DNA of 64,000 nt from Psychroserpens damuponensis. GTDB lineage: Bacteria > Bacteroidota > Bacteroidia > Flavobacteriales > Flavobacteriaceae. Under the pieces are notes generated by a model. That model searched no databases. It was not told the origin of the DNA and saw only the letters and a list, made by a program, of their open reading frames with translations. A program made the position numbers and the translations under genes. The stretch is from the NCBI RefSeq assembly GCF_000826655.1, contig NZ_JXJO01000017.1, forward strand, positions 248,001 to 312,000, written 5' to 3'. Position 1 is the first letter of the stretch, and the number at the start of each line of letters is the position of its first letter. Shown here piece after piece: positions 47,949 through 61,496 of this stretch.

Positions 47949-50864
47949 TTAACCCACTATATTCACAATTTTACCAGGAACCACAATCACTTTTTTGGGT
48001 GTACGACCGTCTAACTGCGCTATGGTTTTTTCATGAGCCATAACCGTTTTTTCAATATCATCTTTACTCATATCCATAGGTAACTCAAGTGTAAAACGCA
48101 TTTTACCGTTAAATGAAATTGGATAATTTTTACTGCTTTCTACTAAATATTTGCCTTCAAACTCAGGGAATGTTGCTGTTGAGATAGAGGTTGCATTTCC
48201 AAGTTTATGCCATAATTCTTCAGCAATATGAGGTGCGTAAGGCGATAATAGAATTAAAAATGGTTCTAGAATAGCTTTACTCGTACATTTTTGAGCCGTA
48301 AACTCATTAACAGCAATCATAAAAGTTGAAACCGATGTGTTGAACGAGAAATTCTCGATATCATCTTCTACTTTTTTGATGGTTTTATGAAGCGTTTTCA
48401 AGTTATCTGCTGTTGGCTCTGCGTCATTAACTTTTAAACCGTTGTCATCAATATAGAGTTTCCAAAGTTTTTTAAGAAAACCATGAACACCAGTGATTCC
48501 TGCAGTATTCCAAGGCTTTGCTTGTTCTAAAGGACCAAGAAACATTTCGTATAAACGTAAACTGTCTGCTCCATATTGCTCACAAATGGCATCAGGATTT
48601 ACGACGTTATATTTAGATTTAGACATTTTTTCGACTTCGCGACCTACTTTATATACGCCATCTTCTAAAATAAATTCGGCATCCTTAAAGTCTTCACCAA
48701 ATTCTCCATCTTGCTTTAATCCTTCGATATCTAATTCATCTGAAGCATTAACGTACTGAACTTTTACATGAATAGCGACTACATTTTTATCTTTAATTAA
48801 TCCTTCTGAAATATAAGTATTCGTACCATCTTGTCTATAAACAAAAGCACTAGTTCCAAGTATCATCCCTTGATTAATTAACTTTTTAAAAGGCTCTTCT
48901 ACATTTACAAAACCACGATCTTTCATAAACTTCACCCAAAAACGTGAGTAGAGTAAATGTCCTGTGGCATGCTCGCTACCTCCAATGTATAAATCGACGT
49001 TTTCCCAATAGTTAAGCGCCTCTTCACTGGCAAAGTCTTCGCCTCTATTGGCAGCTTCTTCCATATATCTAAAGAAATACCATGAGCTTCCTGCCCAACC
49101 AGGCATTGTGTTGAGCTCTAGAGGGTAAACTCCATTATGAGATTCTTCGCTGCGCTCTGAATGACATAGGTCGTTGGAGACTACTTTGTTATTTTTTGTG
49201 TCCCAAGCCCAAACATCGGCACGACCTAAAGGTGGCTCTCCTGTTTCGGTTGGTAAATATTTTTCTACTTCTGGCAAACGTATTGGTAAGTGCTCTTTAG
49301 CAATCATTTGTGGTGCACCGTTTACATAATACACTGGGAATGGTTCTCCCCAATATCGTTGTCTAGAAAAGACAGCATCACGCAATCTGTAATTAGTTTT
49401 ACCGACACCTTGACCTAGTTTTTCTAATTCGTAAATAGCCGTTTTACTTGCTTTTTTATAGTTTAAACCGTTAAGAAAATCACTGTTTGAAATTTTTACA
49501 TTGTCTTTAGATGCAAATGCTTCTTCGGAAATATCTACGCCTTCAAATATGTTAGGAATTTGGATATTAAAGTGCTTGGCAAAATCATAATCGCGTTGAT
49601 CTCCACATGGTACAGACATAACTGCTCCTGTACCATAACCAGCTAATACGTAATCACCAATCCAGATTGGAATAGGCTCTTTTGTAAATGGATGCTCTGC
49701 ATAAGCACCTGTAAATGCTCCCGAAATGGTTTTTACATCTGCCATACGATCACGTTCACTACGTTTTGCTGTAGCTGTGATGTAGGCTTCAACTGCTTCT
49801 TTTTGATCTGGTGTTGTAATTTTTGAGACGAGTTCGTGCTCTGGTGCTAAGGTCATGAATGACACTCCGAAGATGGTATCAGGACGTGTTGTGAAAACCT
49901 CAATTTGATGAGATTCTTCGCTTTGCTCTGAATGACATTCCTCATTGTCGTCATGCTGAACTTGCTTCAGCATCTCACTCGTCATTTTTACCTTAAAAGT
50001 CACAGAAGCACCAACCGATTTTCCAATCCAGTTACGCTGACTTTCCTTTAAGGAATCTGTCCAATCAATCGTGTCTAATCCTTGAAGTAAGCGCTCGGCA
50101 TAAGCAGAAATTCTCATACTCCATTGTGTCATTTTTTTACGCATTACAGGATGTCCTCCACGCTCAGACACACCATTTACAATTTCATCATTTGCTAAAA
50201 CGGTTCCTAGTGTTGGGCACCAGTTAACTTCTGTTTCGGCTAAATAGGCTAATCTGTATTGTAATAAGATGTCTTGTTGTTCTTTAGAAGAAAACCCATT
50301 CCATTCTTCCGAAGAAAACATAGTTATATCATCGTCACAAGCTGCGTTGATGTGCGCATTACCTTCCGAAGAAAACTTTAAAATTAAGGTCTCGATAGCT
50401 TCTGCTTGGTTGGTATCATTATTATACCAAGATTCGAAAAGCTGAATAAAAATCCATTGTGTCCATTTGTAATACTCTGGATTTGATGTACGCACCTCTC
50501 TACTCCAATCAAATGAAAAACCGATTTGATCTAATTGACGACGGTATGTTTTTATATTGGTTTCTGTTGTAATTGCTGGATGTTGACCTGTTTGAATAGC
50601 GTATTGCTCTGCAGGCAAACCAAAACTATCATACCCTTGAGGATGCAACACATTAAAGCCTTTATGACGTTTATAACGTGCATAAATATCACTTGCAATA
50701 TAACCTAAGGGATGACCAACGTGTAGTCCTGCACCACTTGGGTAAGGGAACATATCTAATACATAATATTTAGGCTTTTTACTGTTATTTGCAGCTTTAA
50801 ATGTTTGGTTGTCTGCCCAATATTTTTGCCATTTGGCTTCAATCTCATTAAAATGATAACTCAT
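47949..50864 (-). CDS. leuS: Leucyl-tRNA synthetase with two in-frame repeat insertions
   Basis: A 971-residue class I synthetase that charges tRNA-Leu and edits mischarged tRNA. It has HVGH at 48-51, KMSKS in EVEKMSKSKYNVVNP, and the editing domain with TTRPDTIFGVSF. Two stretches look foreign. One is at about residues 294-320 (SEMLKQVQHDD then CHSEQSEESHQ), just before the editing domain. The other is at about 565-577 (LCHSERSEESHN), before PLELNTMPGWAGSSWYF. They are translations of the nucleotide repeats at 49909-49985 and 49138-49167. All core motifs and the frame are intact, so the enzyme should work. Confidence 0.96.
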   Translation of the reverse strand: MSYHFNEIEAKWQKYWADNQTFKAANNSKKPKYYVLDMFPYPSGAGLHVGHPLGYIASDIYARYKRHKGFNVLHPQGYDSFGLPAEQYAIQTGQHPAITTETNIKTYRRQLDQIGFSFDWSREVRTSNPEYYKWTQWIFIQLFESWYNNDTNQAEAIETLILKFSSEGNAHINAACDDDITMFSSEEWNGFSSKEQQDILLQYRLAYLAETEVNWCPTLGTVLANDEIVNGVSERGGHPVMRKKMTQWSMRISAYAERLLQGLDTIDWTDSLKESQRNWIGKSVGASVTFKVKMTSEMLKQVQHDDNEECHSEQSEESHQIEVFTTRPDTIFGVSFMTLAPEHELVSKITTPDQKEAVEAYITATAKRSERDRMADVKTISGAFTGAYAEHPFTKEPIPIWIGDYVLAGYGTGAVMSVPCGDQRDYDFAKHFNIQIPNIFEGVDISEEAFASKDNVKISNSDFLNGLNYKKASKTAIYELEKLGQGVGKTNYRLRDAVFSRQRYWGEPFPVYYVNGAPQMIAKEHLPIRLPEVEKYLPTETGEPPLGRADVWAWDTKNNKVVSNDLCHSERSEESHNGVYPLELNTMPGWAGSSWYFFRYMEEAANRGEDFASEEALNYWENVDLYIGGSEHATGHLLYSRFWVKFMKDRGFVNVEEPFKKLINQGMILGTSAFVYRQDGTNTYISEGLIKDKNVVAIHVKVQYVNASDELDIEGLKQDGEFGEDFKDAEFILEDGVYKVGREVEKMSKSKYNVVNPDAICEQYGADSLRLYEMFLGPLEQAKPWNTAGITGVHGFLKKLWKLYIDDNGLKVNDAEPTADNLKTLHKTIKKVEDDIENFSFNTSVSTFMIAVNEFTAQKCTSKAILEPFLILLSPYAPHIAEELWHKLGNATSISTATFPEFEGKYLVESSKNYPISFNGKMRFTLELPMDMSKDDIEKTVMAHEKTIAQLDGRTPKKVIVVPGKIVNIVG
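49138..49167. repeat. Palindromic repeat inside leuS, copy 1
   Basis: A 30-base element, 28 of 30 identical to 49909-49938. On the minus strand it begins ATGTCATTCAGAGCGCAGCG and encodes CHSERSEESH in frame. The same family occurs at 9982-10057 and 27161-27189. Confidence 0.8.
49909..49985. repeat. Palindromic repeat inside leuS, copy 2
   Basis: A longer copy. The left 30 bases match copy 1. The right half contains a perfect hairpin, ATGCTGAA (49953-49960) with TTCAGCAT (49966-49973). On the minus strand the whole encodes about 26 residues in frame. The right half matches 27161-27189 at about 20 of 25 positions. Confidence 0.8.
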
Positions 50865-53391: not shown

Positions 53392-54513
53392 TTAGAGTTC
53401 TTTAGCGAACTTTTTTGCCATCATTTTTACGTAGTATGTACTATTTTTCATAGCATCGTCCATACCTTTTGAATAATTCATTACGGTATCTACGTAATCA
53501 ATTCCACTTGCTTTTGCACTCTTATTAGATAATTCTGATGTACCGCAAAGAGCAGCTACTTTAATTTGTTTTTCTTTAGCTGAAGTTAATACTCCATTTA
53601 TAGTTTTTCCTGAAAATGTTTGTTCATCAAGGCTACCTTCACCTGTGATTATCCAATCTGCGTTTTCAATTTTAGAATCAAAATTTGCGAGAGATTTTAT
53701 AAGTTCAATTCCTGGTTTTAATAGGCCACTTAAAAACAGTTTTGAAGCTATTCCCATTCCACCTGCTGCTCCAGCACCTTTAATTGTTTGTGGATCAATA
53801 CTAAATTTTTTAGACAGCACTTTTGAAAAATCCTTTAACCCTTGGTCTAAAAACGCTATATCTTCAATTGATGCTCCTTTTTGTTGAGCATAAACATAAG
53901 CCGCTCCTTCGCTACCATACAAAGGGTTTGAAACATCACAGGCAATATTAAAGCTAACACCTTTGAGTTTTTGGTTCACTTTACTATCATCAATGGTGGT
54001 TATTATTGATAAATTTCTACCTATAGGTTTCACCTCATGTCCTTCATCATCTAAAAATTTATAGCCTAATGCAGTAGCCATACCTATTCCACAGTCATTA
54101 GTTGCACTACCACCAATACCTAGAATAATTGTTTTAGCACCTTTATTTAAAGCATCTACAATCATTTCACCTGTACCTAATGTGGTTGCATGAACACAAT
54201 CAAACTGTGCTTTCTGTAAGAGTTTAACTCCAGATGCTTCTGCCATTTCTATAAATGCAATTTTAGATATTTCAGAATATAAATACGATGCTACTACAGG
54301 TTTAAAAAAAGGATTATTAACTTCAATTTTAATGACGTTACCTTGGAGATAATAATTCACAACTTCAATAGTACCATCTCCACCATCTGCTAGTGGTAAT
54401 TTCACCATATCAACGTTTCTATGCTCGGCTTTAAAACCTTCTTCAACTGCATCACAAAACTCCATTCCTGTTAGAGAATTTTTAAACTTATCTGGAGCAA
54501 GAACTATTTTCAT
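53392..54513 (-). CDS. Glycerate kinase
   Basis: A 373-residue glycerate kinase of the GarK/GlxK family, which phosphorylates D-glycerate, usually to 2-phosphoglycerate. It has MKIVLAPDKFKNSLTGMEFC at the start, PLADGGDGTIEVV, and the nucleotide-binding GIGGSATNDCGIGMATALG. The length is normal. It is 11 bases after the symporter gene, the last of four co-oriented genes. The neighbouring glycoside hydrolase would release glycerate, so this enzyme would feed it into lower glycolysis. Confidence 0.94.
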   Translation of the reverse strand: MKIVLAPDKFKNSLTGMEFCDAVEEGFKAEHRNVDMVKLPLADGGDGTIEVVNYYLQGNVIKIEVNNPFFKPVVASYLYSEISKIAFIEMAEASGVKLLQKAQFDCVHATTLGTGEMIVDALNKGAKTIILGIGGSATNDCGIGMATALGYKFLDDEGHEVKPIGRNLSIITTIDDSKVNQKLKGVSFNIACDVSNPLYGSEGAAYVYAQQKGASIEDIAFLDQGLKDFSKVLSKKFSIDPQTIKGAGAAGGMGIASKLFLSGLLKPGIELIKSLANFDSKIENADWIITGEGSLDEQTFSGKTINGVLTSAKEKQIKVAALCGTSELSNKSAKASGIDYVDTVMNYSKGMDDAMKNSTYYVKMMAKKFAKEL

Positions 54514-54524
54514 TGAAATGAGAA

Positions 54525-56231
54525 TTAATTTAATATACTAGGCAATACATAACTCACTAAAAGAATTAAGATAAAAAATGAGATTAATATCACACTCTCT
54601 TTTTGTAGTAAATCTTTTTTATTAAACGTATAACTCACTTCTAGTTGTTTAGCTGGAGTTTTAGAGGTCAATTTACTCACTATAACTGCCACCATAACTG
54701 CAATGATAAAACCAGTTAAATTATACCAAATCCAGAATAGATCTAGAATATTATGAATTCCAATTTCTGCTAAAGCATTATGAATTGAAACATCACCAGA
54801 ATAAAAATGACCTTGACTAAAAAAGTAAACCAATTCTGGCAAATACTTAAATATGAGGTTTACAGCTACAGCAGTTATTATGGCTGAATTCATACCTACA
54901 TGATTGACATTCTTAAAAAATATAGCAATCACAAAGGCCGCTAATATTGGTCCGTAAAATAGTGAAGAAATCGCATTAATCAATTCTATCACTGTACTTT
55001 CACTATTCCCAAAAAGATAAGCAGCCAAAATACAAACCGTTCCCCAAAATATAACGAGGCCTTTAGACAAGAACATATATTTCTTTTCAGACAGTTTCTT
55101 TTCACCACTATTAAAAAAGTCTTCTATAGTAACAGCACTTAATGAATTGATTGTTGAACTAAGAGAAGACATTGCTGCAGACATGATTCCAACCATTAAA
55201 ATACCTATAAGTCCGTTGGGTAAATAATTAGTAATAAAAACAGGCATCATTAAATCGGGTTTAATACCAGACTTTGCATACTCGACCGGATAATGTATTC
55301 GAGTGGTTTCTTTAATACTTTCATAAAACTCAGGAATATTAGTCACTAAATAGCCTATGACCAATCCCATAATACAATACACAAAAACCACAGGAAAACG
55401 CAATAAGCCATTAGCCATTAATAACTTTTTTATTGTGCCTTCATTTTTTGCCGACAATAAACGTTGAGCTTGAGTTTGATCTGTTCCATAATATGATAAA
55501 TACAAGAATAAGCCACCTAAAAGCATTGGCCAAAACCCATACTCTTCTCCATTAAAAAAACCAAGATTGGAAACATCTATAACCTGAAGTCGCTCTGCAT
55601 CAAAACCAGTAAAAGTTCCAGTATCTTTCATTAAAGAATAGCCTACAACTAAACATATGATGAGCCCAAAAAATAAAATTATCATTTGAATAGCATCTCC
55701 CCAAACAACAGCTTTCATGCCACCTTGATAAGAATAAACGAGTGTTACCACGCTTATAATGAGTAGCGTCCAATGAAAACTTATACCTGCCACAGCTTGA
55801 ATAATTAGTGCCATTGTAAACACCATAACTCCTGTACCTAATGCTCTACTAATTTGAAAAACAACACTAATTAACTTTCGAGTTGAAGGCGAAAAACGAC
55901 GTTCTAAATATTCGTAAATACTCACAATACCCGATTTATATAAAGGTGGTATTATGAAAAACATAATACCAATCATTGCTAGAGGCACGCCAAATTCAAA
56001 TGTTAGCCATTTCATGCCTCCATTAGCCTTTAAACCAACAAATGCTGGAGCCGAAATAAAACTTATGGCAGATAATTGAGTTGCCATAGTTGATAAACTC
56101 AACGGAAACCAACCTAGACTTTTTCCACCTAAAAAATAATCTTTTGAATTTTTATTTTCTTTAAAGAAATAACCCATGGCCATAAAACCAATGAGGTAAA
56201 CACCAATTATTGTATAGTCTAGCCAATTCAT
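54525..56231 (-). CDS. Sodium:solute symporter (SSS family)
   Basis: A 568-residue transporter with about 14 membrane segments. It has GVYLIGFMAMGYFFKENKNS, YFLGGKSLGWFPLSLSTMAT and GMKAVVWGDAIQMIILFFG, typical of the SSS family. It imports a small solute into the cytoplasm with sodium. Its place between a GH63 hydrolase and a glycerate kinase suggests a sugar-glycerate as substrate. The actual substrate is not fixed by sequence; hexose or inositol transporters are close relatives. Confidence 0.9.
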   Translation of the reverse strand: MNWLDYTIIGVYLIGFMAMGYFFKENKNSKDYFLGGKSLGWFPLSLSTMATQLSAISFISAPAFVGLKANGGMKWLTFEFGVPLAMIGIMFFIIPPLYKSGIVSIYEYLERRFSPSTRKLISVVFQISRALGTGVMVFTMALIIQAVAGISFHWTLLIISVVTLVYSYQGGMKAVVWGDAIQMIILFFGLIICLVVGYSLMKDTGTFTGFDAERLQVIDVSNLGFFNGEEYGFWPMLLGGLFLYLSYYGTDQTQAQRLLSAKNEGTIKKLLMANGLLRFPVVFVYCIMGLVIGYLVTNIPEFYESIKETTRIHYPVEYAKSGIKPDLMMPVFITNYLPNGLIGILMVGIMSAAMSSLSSTINSLSAVTIEDFFNSGEKKLSEKKYMFLSKGLVIFWGTVCILAAYLFGNSESTVIELINAISSLFYGPILAAFVIAIFFKNVNHVGMNSAIITAVAVNLIFKYLPELVYFFSQGHFYSGDVSIHNALAEIGIHNILDLFWIWYNLTGFIIAVMVAVIVSKLTSKTPAKQLEVSYTFNKKDLLQKESVILISFFILILLVSYVLPSILN

Positions 56232-56363
56232 ATTAATTATCGTTTAATTCTAGGTTAGTGAAATCATTGTACTTACTAATGATGTAGGTTTTAATTTAGC
56301 TTTAAATCTAACAAATAAGCTATATCTAATTCCTTAGAAAAACATTACTCATTTAGTTTTACG

Positions 56364-57677
56364 TTAATCATTTAATAAATCTATTAACAAAGCTGCTGTC
56401 CATGAAAAATTATTCCCTCCATAACCAGCATCATTGTTATGATGCATTTCTTTTCTAGAATCAAAATACTCATAAAATCCATTGTTTTCAATCATAGTGA
56501 CAGTATCTTCTTTAACTCGCTGAGCAATCGTATCAAATCCATACTGTTTTAACCCATTATATAACATCCAATTGAGGTTAATCCAAACAGGACCTCTCCA
56601 ATATTTTTTTGGATTAAATCGATCACTAGTAGGATCAAAGGAAGCGCATAAATATTGATTTTCATTACCAAATTTTTCCATCATTACATTAACCATTATT
56701 TCTGCTTTTTCGGGATCTGGAATGTTTGCAAATAATGGAGCAAATGATGATGATGACACATATCTTAAAGGCCTTTCATTTCTTAAATCATAATGAACAT
56801 AAGCCCCTAATTCTTCATCAAATAATTTATCATTAAACGAAGTAATACTTTTTTGTTGCCATTTTTTTAATTGTTTAATTTTATTTTCATTGCCACCAAT
56901 AAGCTCATACAACTCAATTAAAGCTTCGTTAGATTTAATCAACATGGCATTAAAAAGAGGATCTTGTACTAAAAAAGGAGATAACTCTGCTATTTTTTCA
57001 TCATCATAATTATTTGCTTTAGCAATTTCTATAATATGTAAATAATGATCATATTCTCTCTTACTTGGTCGTTCTTCAGGATCAACATGTGTAGTGTCAC
57101 GTCTTTCAAAATCATACTCTGGCGGATTCATAGTTTCCCAAATATCATCCCAAATAGGCGAATTATCTGTTCCTGATTCCCAATTATGATAGATATAAAC
57201 TAAGCCTTCATTTTGTGGATCTCTGTTGTCGTAAAAATACTTATGATTATTATAAACTTTGTCAATTTGTGTTTCAATAAATTCTAATGTTGCTGTTTTA
57301 TCCTGACTTATTCTATACAATTCTTTTAACACAAAACCAGTCACTGGAGGTTGAGTCATTCCTGTTGATTTAAACTTAGGGTTTGACTCTGGATGTAAAT
57401 CTGAGCGATGAAAGTTTGCTCCAGGAAAATAACTATCAGTTTCAGTATGAAAAATAATATGTGGTATAAACCCATTTCCCCATTGTGATTTAAGTAAGGT
57501 TTTTATTTCCATTTCAGCCTTTTGCATGTCATAATGCGCAAAGCCAATAGCAATAAGACCTGAATCCCAAAACCATTGAAAAGGATATAAATTTTCACAA
57601 GGAATGGTAAACTCTCCTTCAGATTTGAAGTTTGAGTTTAGAATATGTTCTGCTTTTTGTTGTAATGTTTTTTTCAT
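56364..57677 (-). CDS. GH63-type glucosylglycerate/mannosylglycerate hydrolase homologue
   Basis: A 437-residue (alpha/alpha)6-barrel hydrolase. It has YPFQWFWDSG (31-40), WGNGFIPHIIF (66-76), MTQPP (107-111), NWESGTDNSPIWDD (165-178) and YWRGPVWINLNW (359-370). These match the bacterial MgH/GgH hydrolases, which split mannosylglycerate or glucosylglycerate into hexose and glycerate. The known catalytic pair is an Asp in the ESGxDNSP motif and a Glu near the C-terminus; candidates here are Asp171 and Glu403. It has no signal peptide, so it is cytoplasmic. The start at 57677 (MKKTLQQKAEHIL) is preferred over 57725. Trehalase-like activity is an alternative. Confidence 0.85.
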   Translation of the reverse strand: MKKTLQQKAEHILNSNFKSEGEFTIPCENLYPFQWFWDSGLIAIGFAHYDMQKAEMEIKTLLKSQWGNGFIPHIIFHTETDSYFPGANFHRSDLHPESNPKFKSTGMTQPPVTGFVLKELYRISQDKTATLEFIETQIDKVYNNHKYFYDNRDPQNEGLVYIYHNWESGTDNSPIWDDIWETMNPPEYDFERRDTTHVDPEERPSKREYDHYLHIIEIAKANNYDDEKIAELSPFLVQDPLFNAMLIKSNEALIELYELIGGNENKIKQLKKWQQKSITSFNDKLFDEELGAYVHYDLRNERPLRYVSSSSFAPLFANIPDPEKAEIMVNVMMEKFGNENQYLCASFDPTSDRFNPKKYWRGPVWINLNWMLYNGLKQYGFDTIAQRVKEDTVTMIENNGFYEYFDSRKEMHHNNDAGYGGNNFSWTAALLIDLLND

Positions 57678-57700
57678 TGAGGAAAAATAAATAAGAAATA

Positions 57701-57727
57701 CATTGATATCTATTGATGATATCAATG
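57701..57727. other. Intergenic hairpin between the TonB receptor and GH63 genes
   Basis: A perfect 10-bp inverted repeat, CATTGATATC with GATATCAATG, and a 7-base loop lies 31 bases past the receptor stop codon and 23 bases before the hydrolase start. On the minus strand it is followed by a T-rich tract. It could be a partial terminator or an RNA end-protecting hairpin that sets the receptor-to-enzyme ratio. Confidence 0.5.
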
Positions 57728-57757
57728 CATTCTAGTGAAACTAAATCAAATTAAAAC

Positions 57758-60352
57758 TTAAAAATTAAATGTTGCATTCAAGAAAACTCTTGTTGGAAGT
57801 ACTGGTCTTCCTACGAAAAATTCTTCTTCTGTTTGATTATTACCTAATCTTGGTGATCCTTCGGTAACACCCTCAGAATTAAACAGGTTAAATACTTGGG
57901 CTCCTAAACGCAATGTTTCATCATCTTCGCTTAGAGAAAACGTATACCCTAGATTTAAGTTTGCTAATCCAATAGCATCTAATTCTATAGTATTTGCGTC
58001 ATTAGCAAACTTTTTACCTGTATAGTTATAAACCACACCAGCGTCAAATTTAGAGGACACATAATCTAAAGAGAGTGTTGTTAGTAAATTTGGTTGTCTT
58101 CGTAACTCGTTGCCTTCTAGTTCTGGATCAGCTTCAGATTTTGAAATTTCGTGATCTTGATAAGTAAGTGAACCTCCAAAATTAAAATTATCTGAAAATT
58201 CCCAGTTCCAAGTTCCTTCAAATCCAAATGTACTAGTGTCTTGTGTATCTACTTCTTCGACAAACCCACCTCCAGGTGCATTAACAAAACTAATTGAGCG
58301 TCTATCTTTAAGTCCTACGGAATAAAGCGCAGCTGTACCTGAAAACGAATTTTTAGCATATTTTACACCTAACTCACCTTGTAGTATTTTTTCAGTATCA
58401 TATGAAGAAGGGTTGCCTAAATCATCAAATTGTGTACCTCTAAGCTCAGGAAAAAAGTAACCTCTTGAGAAGTTACCATAAGCACTTAAGTCATCATTAA
58501 TTTTGTACAATCCAGCAACAACAACTGCAAAATCATCTGCAGACACATGACCTCTTGTATAACTTCCATTACCCCAAGTTACATTGTCTAAATTTGCTAT
58601 ACCTGTATTATCAACCACATAAGATTGCACTCCTTCTACTTCAATATCTCCCGAAGCCCTTTCATATCTTACACCAAAATCCAAATTCCATCGATCAAGC
58701 TTTAATTCATCTGCTACAAAAACAGCAATTTTATTACTCGAAATATTTCTATTTGTATATGACGTACCTCTATTAGTAACACCATTTACGGTATATCCAG
58801 AAACATTTATTAACTCTGGTCTATCATTATATTCACCAAGATAATTAGTAATGACATTAAAATCACCTCCTTCAGATCTAGACATGAAGGTTCCAAAAGT
58901 GATATTGTGATTTCCAGCGGTTTTAGTAAACTTTATATCTGCCATTAACTCTTGTAACGGTCTACTCCGATCTAATATTCTGTTTTCAAACAGCAAGGCG
59001 TCTGAAGCCAAAGGCTGTCCATTTAAGTATGTAAATTCTCCAGAAGTTAACCCTCTTGCTTCTAAAAACTCTTGTTGTGTTTCTACTGCTTTAGCTCCAC
59101 TTACTCCACTTCCATCAAGAAAAAGATTAAATTGATGTTTATATTTAGAATATCTAAATTTTGCATCTAATTTTAAATCTTCGGAAAAGCGATGCTTAAA
59201 GTTTGTCAAAAGATATCCACCTAAAGTGGCAACTCCATCTTCAATAGGTGAATTATAAATACCATCTGGTGTGGCATAAGAAATATCAGAAGCTGCAGCA
59301 GTTTGCAATGTAAATATCTCTTCTCCGTCATTACCTGTAGGACGTTTTCGAGATCCGCCTTCTAAAGGATATGGCAAAAAGAATTGTACTGTATCATCAA
59401 TCCATTGTCCTGAGAATGTGATTGATCCTTTATCGGTTACATGTTTTATATTTCCTCGTAGTTGAAAACCTTCAGTTGGCAAACCTGTTTTTATAGGTCC
59501 TTCATCATATCTATAAAATCCAGATAATGCATAAAACGTATTAGAATTTTCTCCTCCTAATGGACCACTAGTAACAAAATCTGCTTTGTATCTAGAATTT
59601 GAAGCTACTTCAGTTTTGATTGTTGTTTTTGATTGTTGAGAACCAGTCACACTAGTATAATTAATTATTCCAGCAACAGAACCTACACCATAAAGAATAG
59701 AAGAACCTCCTCGAACAAATTCTAAACTTCTCATTCCTATGTCATTTCTAAAATAAACATCATGAGCAGAAGAATTGAGTCCAAACGTACTAAGCACTGG
59801 CATGCCATCAATTTGTAAGGGATTAAATTGATATTGTCCGCCTGAAGGCAAACCTCTTACAAATATATTTGAAGCCACTTCTCCACCACCACCTTCGGCC
59901 GTAATTCCAGGAATACTTCTTAACACATCAGCCTGACTACTTGTATTAACCGAAGCTAATTGTTTAGCTCCAATAGAGGTAATTGACATAGGTGTTTCCT
60001 TTTGGGATCTTTTTGTTGATGTTGCGGTTAATACTACAGCATCTAAAGCACTTCCTCCTTCTTCTAAGGTGAAGTTTAATGTTAGCACTGCTCCTTCTAA
60101 AGTAATTTGTTGTTCAAAGGTTAAATAACCTAAATAAGAAACTTGAACTACATGACTGCCAGTTAAAGTTGTAGAAAAACTATAGTTTCCATCAAAATCT
60201 GAATTTGTTCCAGATGTACTTTCTTTGATAATTATATTAGCACCTATAATAGGAACTCCAGAATCATCAGTTACTTTTCCTTTAATTTCGGTTTGCGAAA
60301 AAACAGCGATAGTGCCTGTAAAAAATGCAAACATTAGTAAAATTCTCTTCAT
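57758..60352 (-). CDS. TonB-dependent outer-membrane receptor
   Basis: An 864-residue receptor. The signal peptide is MKRILLMFAFFTGTIAVFSQ. A carboxypeptidase-like regulatory domain (IKGKVTDDSGVPIIGANIII) is followed by a plug domain (VLRSIPGITAEGGGGEVASN, IFVRGLPSGG, SSILYGVGSVAGIINY) and a 22-strand barrel ending in a phenylalanine (VFLNATFNF). It imports a ligand through the outer membrane using ExbBD-TonB energy. It lacks the SusD-type lipoprotein partner that accompanies glycan receptors, which suits a small ligand. It is the first gene of the operon facing lacI. Confidence 0.93.
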   Translation of the reverse strand: MKRILLMFAFFTGTIAVFSQTEIKGKVTDDSGVPIIGANIIIKESTSGTNSDFDGNYSFSTTLTGSHVVQVSYLGYLTFEQQITLEGAVLTLNFTLEEGGSALDAVVLTATSTKRSQKETPMSITSIGAKQLASVNTSSQADVLRSIPGITAEGGGGEVASNIFVRGLPSGGQYQFNPLQIDGMPVLSTFGLNSSAHDVYFRNDIGMRSLEFVRGGSSILYGVGSVAGIINYTSVTGSQQSKTTIKTEVASNSRYKADFVTSGPLGGENSNTFYALSGFYRYDEGPIKTGLPTEGFQLRGNIKHVTDKGSITFSGQWIDDTVQFFLPYPLEGGSRKRPTGNDGEEIFTLQTAAASDISYATPDGIYNSPIEDGVATLGGYLLTNFKHRFSEDLKLDAKFRYSKYKHQFNLFLDGSGVSGAKAVETQQEFLEARGLTSGEFTYLNGQPLASDALLFENRILDRSRPLQELMADIKFTKTAGNHNITFGTFMSRSEGGDFNVITNYLGEYNDRPELINVSGYTVNGVTNRGTSYTNRNISSNKIAVFVADELKLDRWNLDFGVRYERASGDIEVEGVQSYVVDNTGIANLDNVTWGNGSYTRGHVSADDFAVVVAGLYKINDDLSAYGNFSRGYFFPELRGTQFDDLGNPSSYDTEKILQGELGVKYAKNSFSGTAALYSVGLKDRRSISFVNAPGGGFVEEVDTQDTSTFGFEGTWNWEFSDNFNFGGSLTYQDHEISKSEADPELEGNELRRQPNLLTTLSLDYVSSKFDAGVVYNYTGKKFANDANTIELDAIGLANLNLGYTFSLSEDDETLRLGAQVFNLFNSEGVTEGSPRLGNNQTEEEFFVGRPVLPTRVFLNATFNF

Positions 60353-60431
60353 TGGATTGTTAATTAGTTAATATTTGTATAAACTTATTATCATTTTGTT
60401 AAATTTATATCTCAAATATTAATAAATAATT

Positions 60432-60459
60432 ATGCAAACGTTTGCGAAAACGTTTGCAT
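60432..60459. promoter_or_regulatory. LacI-type operator between the receptor and regulator genes
   Basis: A perfect inverted repeat: ATGCAAACGTTT (60432-60443), spacer GCGA, AAACGTTTGCAT (60448-60459). It contains two AAACGTTT-type cores whose centres are 12 bp apart. The first, GCAAACGTTTGC, is itself palindromic. It lies 14 bases before the lacI start and 79 before the receptor start, placed to control both. The consensus matches LacI/CcpA-family sites. Confidence 0.75.
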
Positions 60460-60473
60460 TTTAAAAAAATACT

Positions 60474-61496
60474 GTGAAAAAGAAAATAACCACCCTTAAA
60501 GAGATTGCTCAACAACTTAATTTATCGATTTCAACAGTATCAAGAGCATTAAATGGTCATCCTGACATTAGTGAATCAACGAAGAACAAAGTAGAACGTT
60601 TAGCAAACGAACTCAGTTATGTACCAAATATCTTCGCAAAAGGTTTCAGATCTCATAAATCTAATATTATTGGTGTGATTGTTCCCAGTATTACTCATTA
60701 TTTCACATCTACAATACTTAAAGGTATTTTGGATGAAGCAGCCACAAAAGGTTATAGGATTATTATTTCAGAATCTGATAATGATATTATTAAACAAACG
60801 GAAATGCTCAAAACTATGGTGCAATTTGGAGTAGACGGCATCTTAATGTCACTCACAAAAAGAACAAAAAACATAGAGAATATTATTAAAACAATGAATA
60901 CTGTGCCTATGATTTTATTTGATAAAGTGTCTAGTAAAATTCCTTGTACACAAATTGTTATTAATGAGGAGGAAGCTGCTTTTGATGCTATTGAACACCT
61001 CATAAATATTGGAAAAAAAAGAATAGCCATAATCAAAGAAACCGAACTTTCCTACAATTCAGAAAAAAGATACGCTGGCTATTTAAGAGCGCTAAAAGAG
61101 CACAATATCACTTTTGACGAAAAAATAGTTTTAAGTGTAGAAGATATCACATTAAAACAAGGCAGACGTATGACAAATATATTATTGAGCTTAAAAAATA
61201 GACCTGATGCAATATTTGCAATAACAGATAGCGCTGCAATTGGAGTTGTACAAACATTGAAAAAATTCAAAATTAAAATCCCAGAAGACATCGCAGTTAT
61301 TGGCTTTAGCAATTCAATACATTCAACGATTATTGAACCAATGCTTACCACAATAGACCAACCTGGTGAACGAATAGGAGCTACTGCCATTAAATATCTT
61401 ATTGAAGAAATTGATAATCCTAGTGAATTTAATGGTATCAAAACAGTAGAAATCAAAAGCACCTTAATTATTAGAGATTCTACTTTTTCGAATTAA
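60474..61496 (+). CDS. LacI family transcriptional regulator
   Basis: A 340-residue regulator. The N-terminal helix-turn-helix has TLKEIAQQLNLSISTVSRAL and the hinge helix YVPNIFAKGFRSHKS. A periplasmic-binding-protein-like effector domain follows, from SNIIGVIVPSITHYFTSTIL. The start codon is GTG at 60474. It is divergent from the receptor-hydrolase-symporter-kinase operon and probably represses it, relieved by a substrate or product such as the sugar-glycerate. The palindrome just before its start may also allow self-control. Confidence 0.93.
   Translation: MKKKITTLKEIAQQLNLSISTVSRALNGHPDISESTKNKVERLANELSYVPNIFAKGFRSHKSNIIGVIVPSITHYFTSTILKGILDEAATKGYRIIISESDNDIIKQTEMLKTMVQFGVDGILMSLTKRTKNIENIIKTMNTVPMILFDKVSSKIPCTQIVINEEEAAFDAIEHLINIGKKRIAIIKETELSYNSEKRYAGYLRALKEHNITFDEKIVLSVEDITLKQGRRMTNILLSLKNRPDAIFAITDSAAIGVVQTLKKFKIKIPEDIAVIGFSNSIHSTIIEPMLTTIDQPGERIGATAIKYLIEEIDNPSEFNGIKTVEIKSTLIIRDSTFSN

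Follow-up and report, generated by a model that had tools for sequence, protein, structure and literature searches.

Genes for the degradation of digeneaside (mannosylglycerate), a solute of red algae, have already been noted in marine flavobacteria. Maribacter dokdonensis is reported to hold homologues of the digeneaside-degradation genes of Zobellia galactanivorans, for which Barbeyron et al. 2016 is cited (PMC8072126), and digeneaside is named as one of the additional substrates that North Sea Flavobacteriia might use (PMC6298971). At the enzyme level, the described relatives are the mannosylglycerate hydrolase (MgH) of Thermus thermophilus (2z07; 4wva-c) and the glucosylglycerate hydrolase (GgH) of M. 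hassiacum (5ohc). Here we describe a locus at positions 53392-61496 of a 64,000-nucleotide stretch of Psychroserpens damuponensis (contig NZ_JXJO01000017.1, positions 248,001 to 312,000; the window), in which the gene of a LacI-family regulator diverges from genes for a TonB-dependent receptor, an MgH/GgH-family hydrolase, an SSS-family symporter and a glycerate kinase. It is very probable that these genes form a LacI-controlled operon feeding on an external 2-O-alpha-glycosyl-D-glycerate, most likely mannosylglycerate.

The locus adds one more well-supported member to a kind that had been reported before in marine flavobacteria. A first-pass annotation of this DNA knew of no described Bacteroidetes locus of this composition, a statement that has to be given up, as the digeneaside genes of Zobellia and Maribacter are in print. 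Z. galactanivorans and M. dokdonensis themselves lie outside the loci examined here, and the likeness to their genes is one of proposed substrate and bacterial family. A published account of this five-gene operon was not found, which is weak evidence of absence, with most of the subscription literature outside the search. To what was known, the present analysis adds a comparison of active sites, an operator, add-on genes that differ between lineages, an empty site in two congeners and a hairpin.

All five genes are present in the open reading frame list of the window where the first-pass annotation had placed them, and the matches to Pfam and NCBIfam agree with the identities it had given. On the minus strand lie the receptor gene (57758..60352; PF00593, PF07715 and PF13715, that is, a TonB barrel, a plug and a CarboxypepD_reg-like domain), the hydrolase gene (56364..57677; nearest solved chain 2z07, E 2.3e-93), the symporter gene (54525..56231; PF00474 with 144.7 bits and TIGR00813 with 228.5 bits, above its cut-off) and the glycerate kinase gene (53392..54513; PF02595 with 429.8 bits and TIGR00045 with 403.8 bits, above its cut-off), the nearest solved chains of the kinase being 3cwc ("putative glycerate kinase 2") and 1to6 ("glycerate kinase"). 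The regulator gene is on the plus strand (60474..61496, GTG start) and its product shows the LacI helix-turn-helix and sugar-binding domains (PF00356, PF13377, PF00532). Within 53392-61496 there is one further open reading frame of at least 100 amino acids, antisense to the LacI gene.

In the mechanism that we propose, the receptor would take up the charged solute through the outer membrane, and the symporter would carry it together with sodium across the inner membrane. A presumably cytoplasmic hydrolase (no signal peptide was seen by eye) would then cleave it with inversion, Asp171 acting as acid and Glu403 as base, into hexose and D-glycerate, and the glycerate would be phosphorylated by the kinase and enter glycolysis. 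In the absence of the substrate, LacI bound to a tandem operator between its own gene and that of the receptor would repress transcription. Mannose would be phosphorylated and isomerised by enzymes encoded outside the locus.

Such an arrangement resembles SusCD loci in having a TonB receptor with a CarboxypepD_reg-like domain, a glycoside hydrolase and a regulator, but differs from them in several respects. No SusD-like frame was found beside the receptor or elsewhere in the locus (open reading frame list of the window), the receptor reaches 95.3 bits with the SusC/RagA model TIGR04056, below the cut-off of 368.25, the hydrolase lacks a visible signal peptide, and the proposed substrate is a small solute, in such a way that the SusC-like receptor with adjacent SusD that marks a SusCD-type polysaccharide utilisation locus is missing. 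A different likeness is found in a Rhizobium and a Marinovum locus (L181 and L180), where an MgH-like enzyme follows a sugar importer near a LacI-type or other transcriptional regulator; there, an ABC importer stands instead of the receptor and the SSS symporter, and no glycerate kinase is listed in a gene table that is incomplete.

The hydrolase and its active site

The hydrolase matches the Pfam family MGH1-like_GH (PF22422) over the complete model (1-356 of 356, 297.6 bits), whereas the match to the GH63 C-terminal model covers 30 residues with 28 bits. Judged by these matches, the GH63 label given in the first-pass annotation holds through the MGH branch only. Among solved structures, Thermus MgH 2z07 ranks first (317 bits), followed by GgH chains (213-221 bits), YgjK (around 40 bits) and trehalases (around 23-24 bits), the enzyme thus being far closer to MgH and GgH than to GH37 trehalases. 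Its identity is 40.4% with Thermus MgH over 408 aligned residues, and 31.2% with M. hassiacum GgH over 417. The nearest NCBIfam model is that of glucosylglycerate hydrolase (NF047898), with 317.1 bits and a cut-off of 550, and the enzyme is therefore not filed as a GgH equivalog in the narrow sense. A longer frame with a TTG start begins at 57725, but in an alignment with 14 relatives the column of M1 of the short form does not vary. A PADLOC scan of the hydrolase gave no match.

In order to compare the active sites, 18 positions were taken from PMC6608630 and mapped by alignment. All 18 are equal to those of Thermus MgH and 17 to those of M. hassiacum GgH, the only mismatch being Gln434 of the latter, which is Phe424 in the window enzyme. 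Asp171 and Glu403, the residues singled out in the first-pass annotation, align to the catalytic Asp182 and Glu419 of M. hassiacum GgH. Both are kept in the 41 relatives from the loci described below, and so are the contacts to glycerate at subsite +1 (Y31, W35, Y83, W166, R203 and Y359; contacts according to PMC6608630). Altogether, 17 of the 18 positions are invariant among these relatives, the exception, F89 by the GgH numbering, having Phe in 34 relatives and Tyr in the other 7. In a distant homologue (L073, 27% identical) the catalytic pair is kept but the equivalents of W35, Y83, W166, Y209 and Y359 (W40, Y88, W177, Y222 and Y375 in GgH numbering) are altered, supporting that the glycerate contacts are not mere residues of the fold; the residue of L073 at the Arg216 position depends on the alignment, being Q in one and R in the other.

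Taken as a profile and residue comparison, these data support that the hydrolase belongs to the MgH/GgH family and is far from trehalases. A grouping with trehalases or glucosidases, which would have spoken against the first-pass assignment, was not seen, because Thermus MgH and the GgH chains rank first and all 18 active-site positions match those of the former. The identity as a trehalase or general glucosidase was discarded on the profile and structure scores and on the residues of the +1 site. Phe424 was also considered as a marker of mannose and was rejected, as Phe is found in all the other 20 aligned relatives (L179-L198), so Gln434 marks the mycobacterial enzyme and Phe is no indicator of the sugar. 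In a tree, the window sequence clusters with those of Flavobacteriaceae, with Emticicia further out, and Thermus MgH goes with two alphaproteobacterial sequences; M. hassiacum GgH and L073 have long branches, and hence the tree leaves mannosylglycerate versus glucosylglycerate undecided.

Conservation of the gene order and of the predicted operator

The hydrolase was found at E 1e-20 or better in 44 of 299 sampled Flavobacteriaceae genomes (36 of the 249 of good quality), and a phylum-wide draw gave 19 of 395 genomes, 12 of these outside the family. The 44 genomes, minus the window's own, one with a cut fragment (G281) and that of the distant homologue L073 (G266), yielded 41 fetched loci. The SSS gene adjoins the hydrolase gene in all of them (split over three frames in L055), and glycerate kinase is found in 36, LacI in 23, a same-strand receptor in 21 and all five genes in 20. 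A set of named loci, the closest 80 of at least 571 confirmed candidates, overlaps with the fetched one in at least three isomerase-bearing loci (L084/L032, L091/L039 and L148/L035 are the same contigs, judged by length); in it, a single same-strand run includes the SSS gene in 77 cases, glycerate kinase in 75 and the receptor in 72. The gene order is repeated in the majority of the neighbourhoods fetched and thus goes beyond chance. The first-pass annotation had pointed to other marine flavobacteria as the place to look for the five-gene set, and it is present in Zobellia uliginosa, Z. barbeyronii and Z. amurskyensis (L115, L120 and L126), while Maribacter-titled records make up 11 of the closest 80 named loci. 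The same five genes are also carried by plasmid pEMTOL04 of Emticicia oligotrophica (Cytophagales), where the enzyme is annotated as "trehalase family glycosidase". Among 14 loci from the 12 genomes outside Flavobacteriaceae, the SSS gene is adjacent in 3 and a receptor gene in 2, and a BLAST search for glycerate kinase found it in none; in one locus (L182), a 454-residue gene without Pfam match follows the SSS gene.

The region between the LacI and receptor genes contains a predicted tandem operator of LacI type (60432-60459, no strand assigned), formed by two overlapping palindromes (60433-60446 and 60445-60458) which are an exact and a one-mismatch match of YGCAAACGTTTGCR. A palindrome with central CG next to the regulator gene, which is what this site shows, would be expected of a LacI-regulated sugar operon. 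The 12-base core GCAAACGTTTGC was searched for in 69 LacI/receptor regions, namely that of the window and those of the 68 named loci that have a LacI gene as well as a full-length receptor, being found exactly in 46, with one mismatch in 16 and with two in 4, and being absent from three (L143, L146 and L147). Thus, 62 of 69 real regions have it at 0-1 mismatches, against one case at one mismatch and four at two in 1380 shuffles. Where LacI directly faces the hydrolase gene (L104, L145, L150 and L155) the site is present at 0-1 mismatch in all four loci. By contrast, no site within two mismatches was found in the 400 bases upstream of the hydrolase gene in 19 fetched loci without LacI, nor before the hydrolase gene in seven more named loci where no LacI gene was seen. 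The receptor gene of L105 is split, and as this locus was scanned before the hydrolase gene only, it is no test of the operator.

In the whole genome, exact YGCAAACGTTTGCR occurs at this locus only. With one mismatch it is found again at this locus, once some 150 bases before a gene for phosphoglycerate kinase and once in another intergenic region; a reversed control pattern is found at one place. The copy before phosphoglycerate kinase (L200:1501-1514, contig C10 of the same genome) is perhaps a second target or the site of another LacI protein. As far as sequence can tell, active site, gene order and operator strongly support the first-pass proposal that a glycosyl-glycerate would be imported and hydrolysed and that the kinase would act on the aglycone.

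The glycoside and the fate of its sugar

Relatives of the hydrolase are publicly labelled "trehalase family glycosidase" or "neutral trehalase", and the Pfam Trehalase model gives 62.9 bits with the window enzyme, as if the kinase served something else and the enzyme could cut a different alpha-glycoside (trehalose, kojibiose, floridoside or glucosylglycerol). This we regard as highly improbable, since the compared glycerate contacts are all kept in the 41 relatives, glycerate kinase accompanies the enzyme in 36 of their loci, and M. hassiacum GgH, whose +1 site is the same, reportedly did not split glucosylglycerol (PMC6608630). Scarcely more credible is a recycling of the cell's own solute, with transporters that only recover leakage. 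The characterised mycobacterial GgH of M. hassiacum does reportedly act on a solute of its own cell, unlike the uptake proposed here (PMC6608630), but a search of the genome for mannosyl-3-phosphoglycerate synthase gave no match (the one-step mannosylglycerate synthase family was not searched), and the GpgS model matched 14 places, all below the cut-off, as in 13 of 14 control genomes, one control passing it. In addition, the receptor, the symporter and a regulator of sugar-sensing type stand in one block, which is absent from two congeners.

With an imported glycosyl-glycerate as the preferred substrate, the choice between its two sugars leans to mannose. A mannose-6-phosphate isomerase gene follows the kinase gene in 5 of the 41 fetched loci (L032, L035, L038, L039 and L052), and in 10 of the closest 80 named loci it closes the operon, spaced -20 to 15 bases from the kinase gene; it was identified by the family library in L035 and L052 only, and in the other loci by BLAST to these two. 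Such an isomerase favours mannosylglycerate (digeneaside), because intracellular mannose would need it and glucose would not. It is possible, but rather doubtful, that the natural substrate of the same operon is glucosylglycerate from marine cyanobacteria or other bacteria, the mannose handling of some relatives being an add-on. The substrates of MgH and GgH overlap (PMC6608630), NF047898 is the nearest NCBIfam model, though with a score below its cut-off, and glucosylglycerate originally came to light in a marine cyanobacterium and is reported to be common among these organisms (PMC11009771). However, besides the isomerase, which a glucose product would not require, the hydrolase is nearer to Thermus MgH than to GgH, even if the Phe424 that both share is no sugar marker.

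Several observations weigh against the operon as we read it. The isomerase gene is absent from 36 of the 41 fetched loci and from the window locus. Between the symporter and kinase genes of L051 (5119-6813) and L157 (Lutibacter sp. B1) there is a gene similar to sucrose phosphorylases of GH13_18, which is nearest to glucosylglycerol and sucrose phosphorylases and reaches 202 bits with the sucrose phosphorylase model (cut-off 334). The GH13_18 subfamily is tied to glucosylglycerate synthesis and phosphorolysis and includes enzymes used to make glucosylglycerate (PMC11009771), and the gene, a candidate glucosylglycerate phosphorylase, points to glucose in those two loci; the window operon carries neither of the two add-on genes. 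Thermus MgH reportedly splits mannosylglycerate and glucosylglycerate with similar efficiency (PMC6608630), and with Phe424 as widespread as it is, the sequence cannot choose between the two. Emticicia, with the same five genes, was isolated from warm spring water. As 20 of the 41 fetched loci are without a same-strand receptor next door and 18 without LacI, neither is indispensable. Finally, the profile searches described below leave the hexose half unexplained. We read the glycerate half of the pathway as constant and the sugar half as varying, with mannose more often. Apart from this, a 305-residue gene of the same cluster as the GH13_18-like gene of L051 was seen in L055 (4342-5259), on the opposite strand and 4.7 kb away.

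The first-pass annotation had taken the locus for a complete route to glycolysis, which goes too far. There is no hexose kinase gene among the locus genes, and profile searches of the own genome (G000, given as 99.54% complete) found neither a ROK nor a Glk kinase, the same searches being positive in 12 (ROK) and 4 (Glk) of 14 control genomes; the route is therefore incomplete within the locus. Six PfkB matches in five frames were found in the genome, with one frame below the cut-off and one beside a mannitol dehydrogenase gene, and one BadF/BadG-type kinase match of 32.4 bits. None of these candidates is on C16, the contig that holds the window, and the searches did not extend to mannose isomerase families. 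Elsewhere, the genome has two genes for mannose-6-phosphate isomerase, the nearer one being 52-57% identical to the operon type.

The intercistronic hairpin and the gain or loss of the cluster

The gap between the receptor and hydrolase genes contains a predicted hairpin with a 15-pair stem (57696..57732, minus strand), detected by stem scan and fold z-score, the z of the window spacer being around -4.2 against simple shuffles. The sequence of this spacer varies greatly among relatives and the long stem persists. Of 73 spacers, 55 have a stem of at least 12 pairs, compared with 86 of 730 shuffles, whereas the control spacers between hydrolase and SSS genes gave 3 of 24 against 28 of 240 of their own shuffles. 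A stem of at least 9 pairs with at least 5 T in the next 10 bases was found in 26 of 73 spacers and 117 of 730 shuffles, and the fold z was below -2 in 50 of 66 spacers; the shuffles were of simple or block type, not truly dinucleotide-preserving. This hairpin would be compatible with partial termination or with a stabilising role for the receptor mRNA.

The five-gene cluster is a block gained or lost. In the window it is flanked by putative ftsX and uppP genes (named from sequence), and it stands between the same pair in 7 of the 41 fetched loci. In the congeners G045 and G267, which lack the hydrolase, ftsX and uppP are 0.4 and 1.2 kb apart, and none of the five cluster genes had a match in the 13 kb fetched around this site. 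It was also observed that the identity of the receptor and of the SSS symporter does not follow that of the hydrolase in L032-L054, with receptors at 46-50% in some loci and at 66-79% in others, and with 86% for the symporter against 71% for the hydrolase in L048. These uneven identities suggest an exchange of operon parts.

Other genes were seen in or near the loci of relatives. A GNAT acetyltransferase gene is present in the operon, between the hydrolase and SSS genes, in 19 of the closest 80 named loci (for example L083, L085 and L097), and a GNAT gene (PF13302) occupies the same place in L035 (8273-8884). No lead came from this GNAT gene, from murQ or from a lipoprotein-like gene without Pfam match, nor from what we take to be an S66-type gene in L161 and L162 and a GH97-like gene in L138. 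Elsewhere in the phylum, a distant genome has an RtcB gene with an intein-splicing domain beside an MGH homologue (L186:10690-13653). In the window itself, a frame which we named leucyl-tRNA synthetase (47949-50864) has the in-frame stretches ECHSEQSEESH and LCHSERSEESH, seen by eye and resembling a small inserted repeat.

A broader reading can be offered tentatively, as one that falls somewhat short of probable. The locus would represent a SusD-free route for charged osmolytes, a LacI regulon with its own receptor in around half of the fetched loci, by which mannosylglycerate or glucosylglycerate from algae and cyanobacteria would reach glycolysis; the sugar half would be specific to the lineage, with the isomerase for mannose and the GH13_18 gene for glucose, and the hairpin would set the levels of the receptor above those of the enzymes. 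If this broader reading is true, flavobacteria would feed regularly on glycosyl-glycerates, and the add-on gene would reveal which of them is used. A clear gene marker, together with the operator and the add-on genes, would allow the bacteria that eat these solutes to be traced, and it would also correct the public trehalase labels on enzymes of this type.

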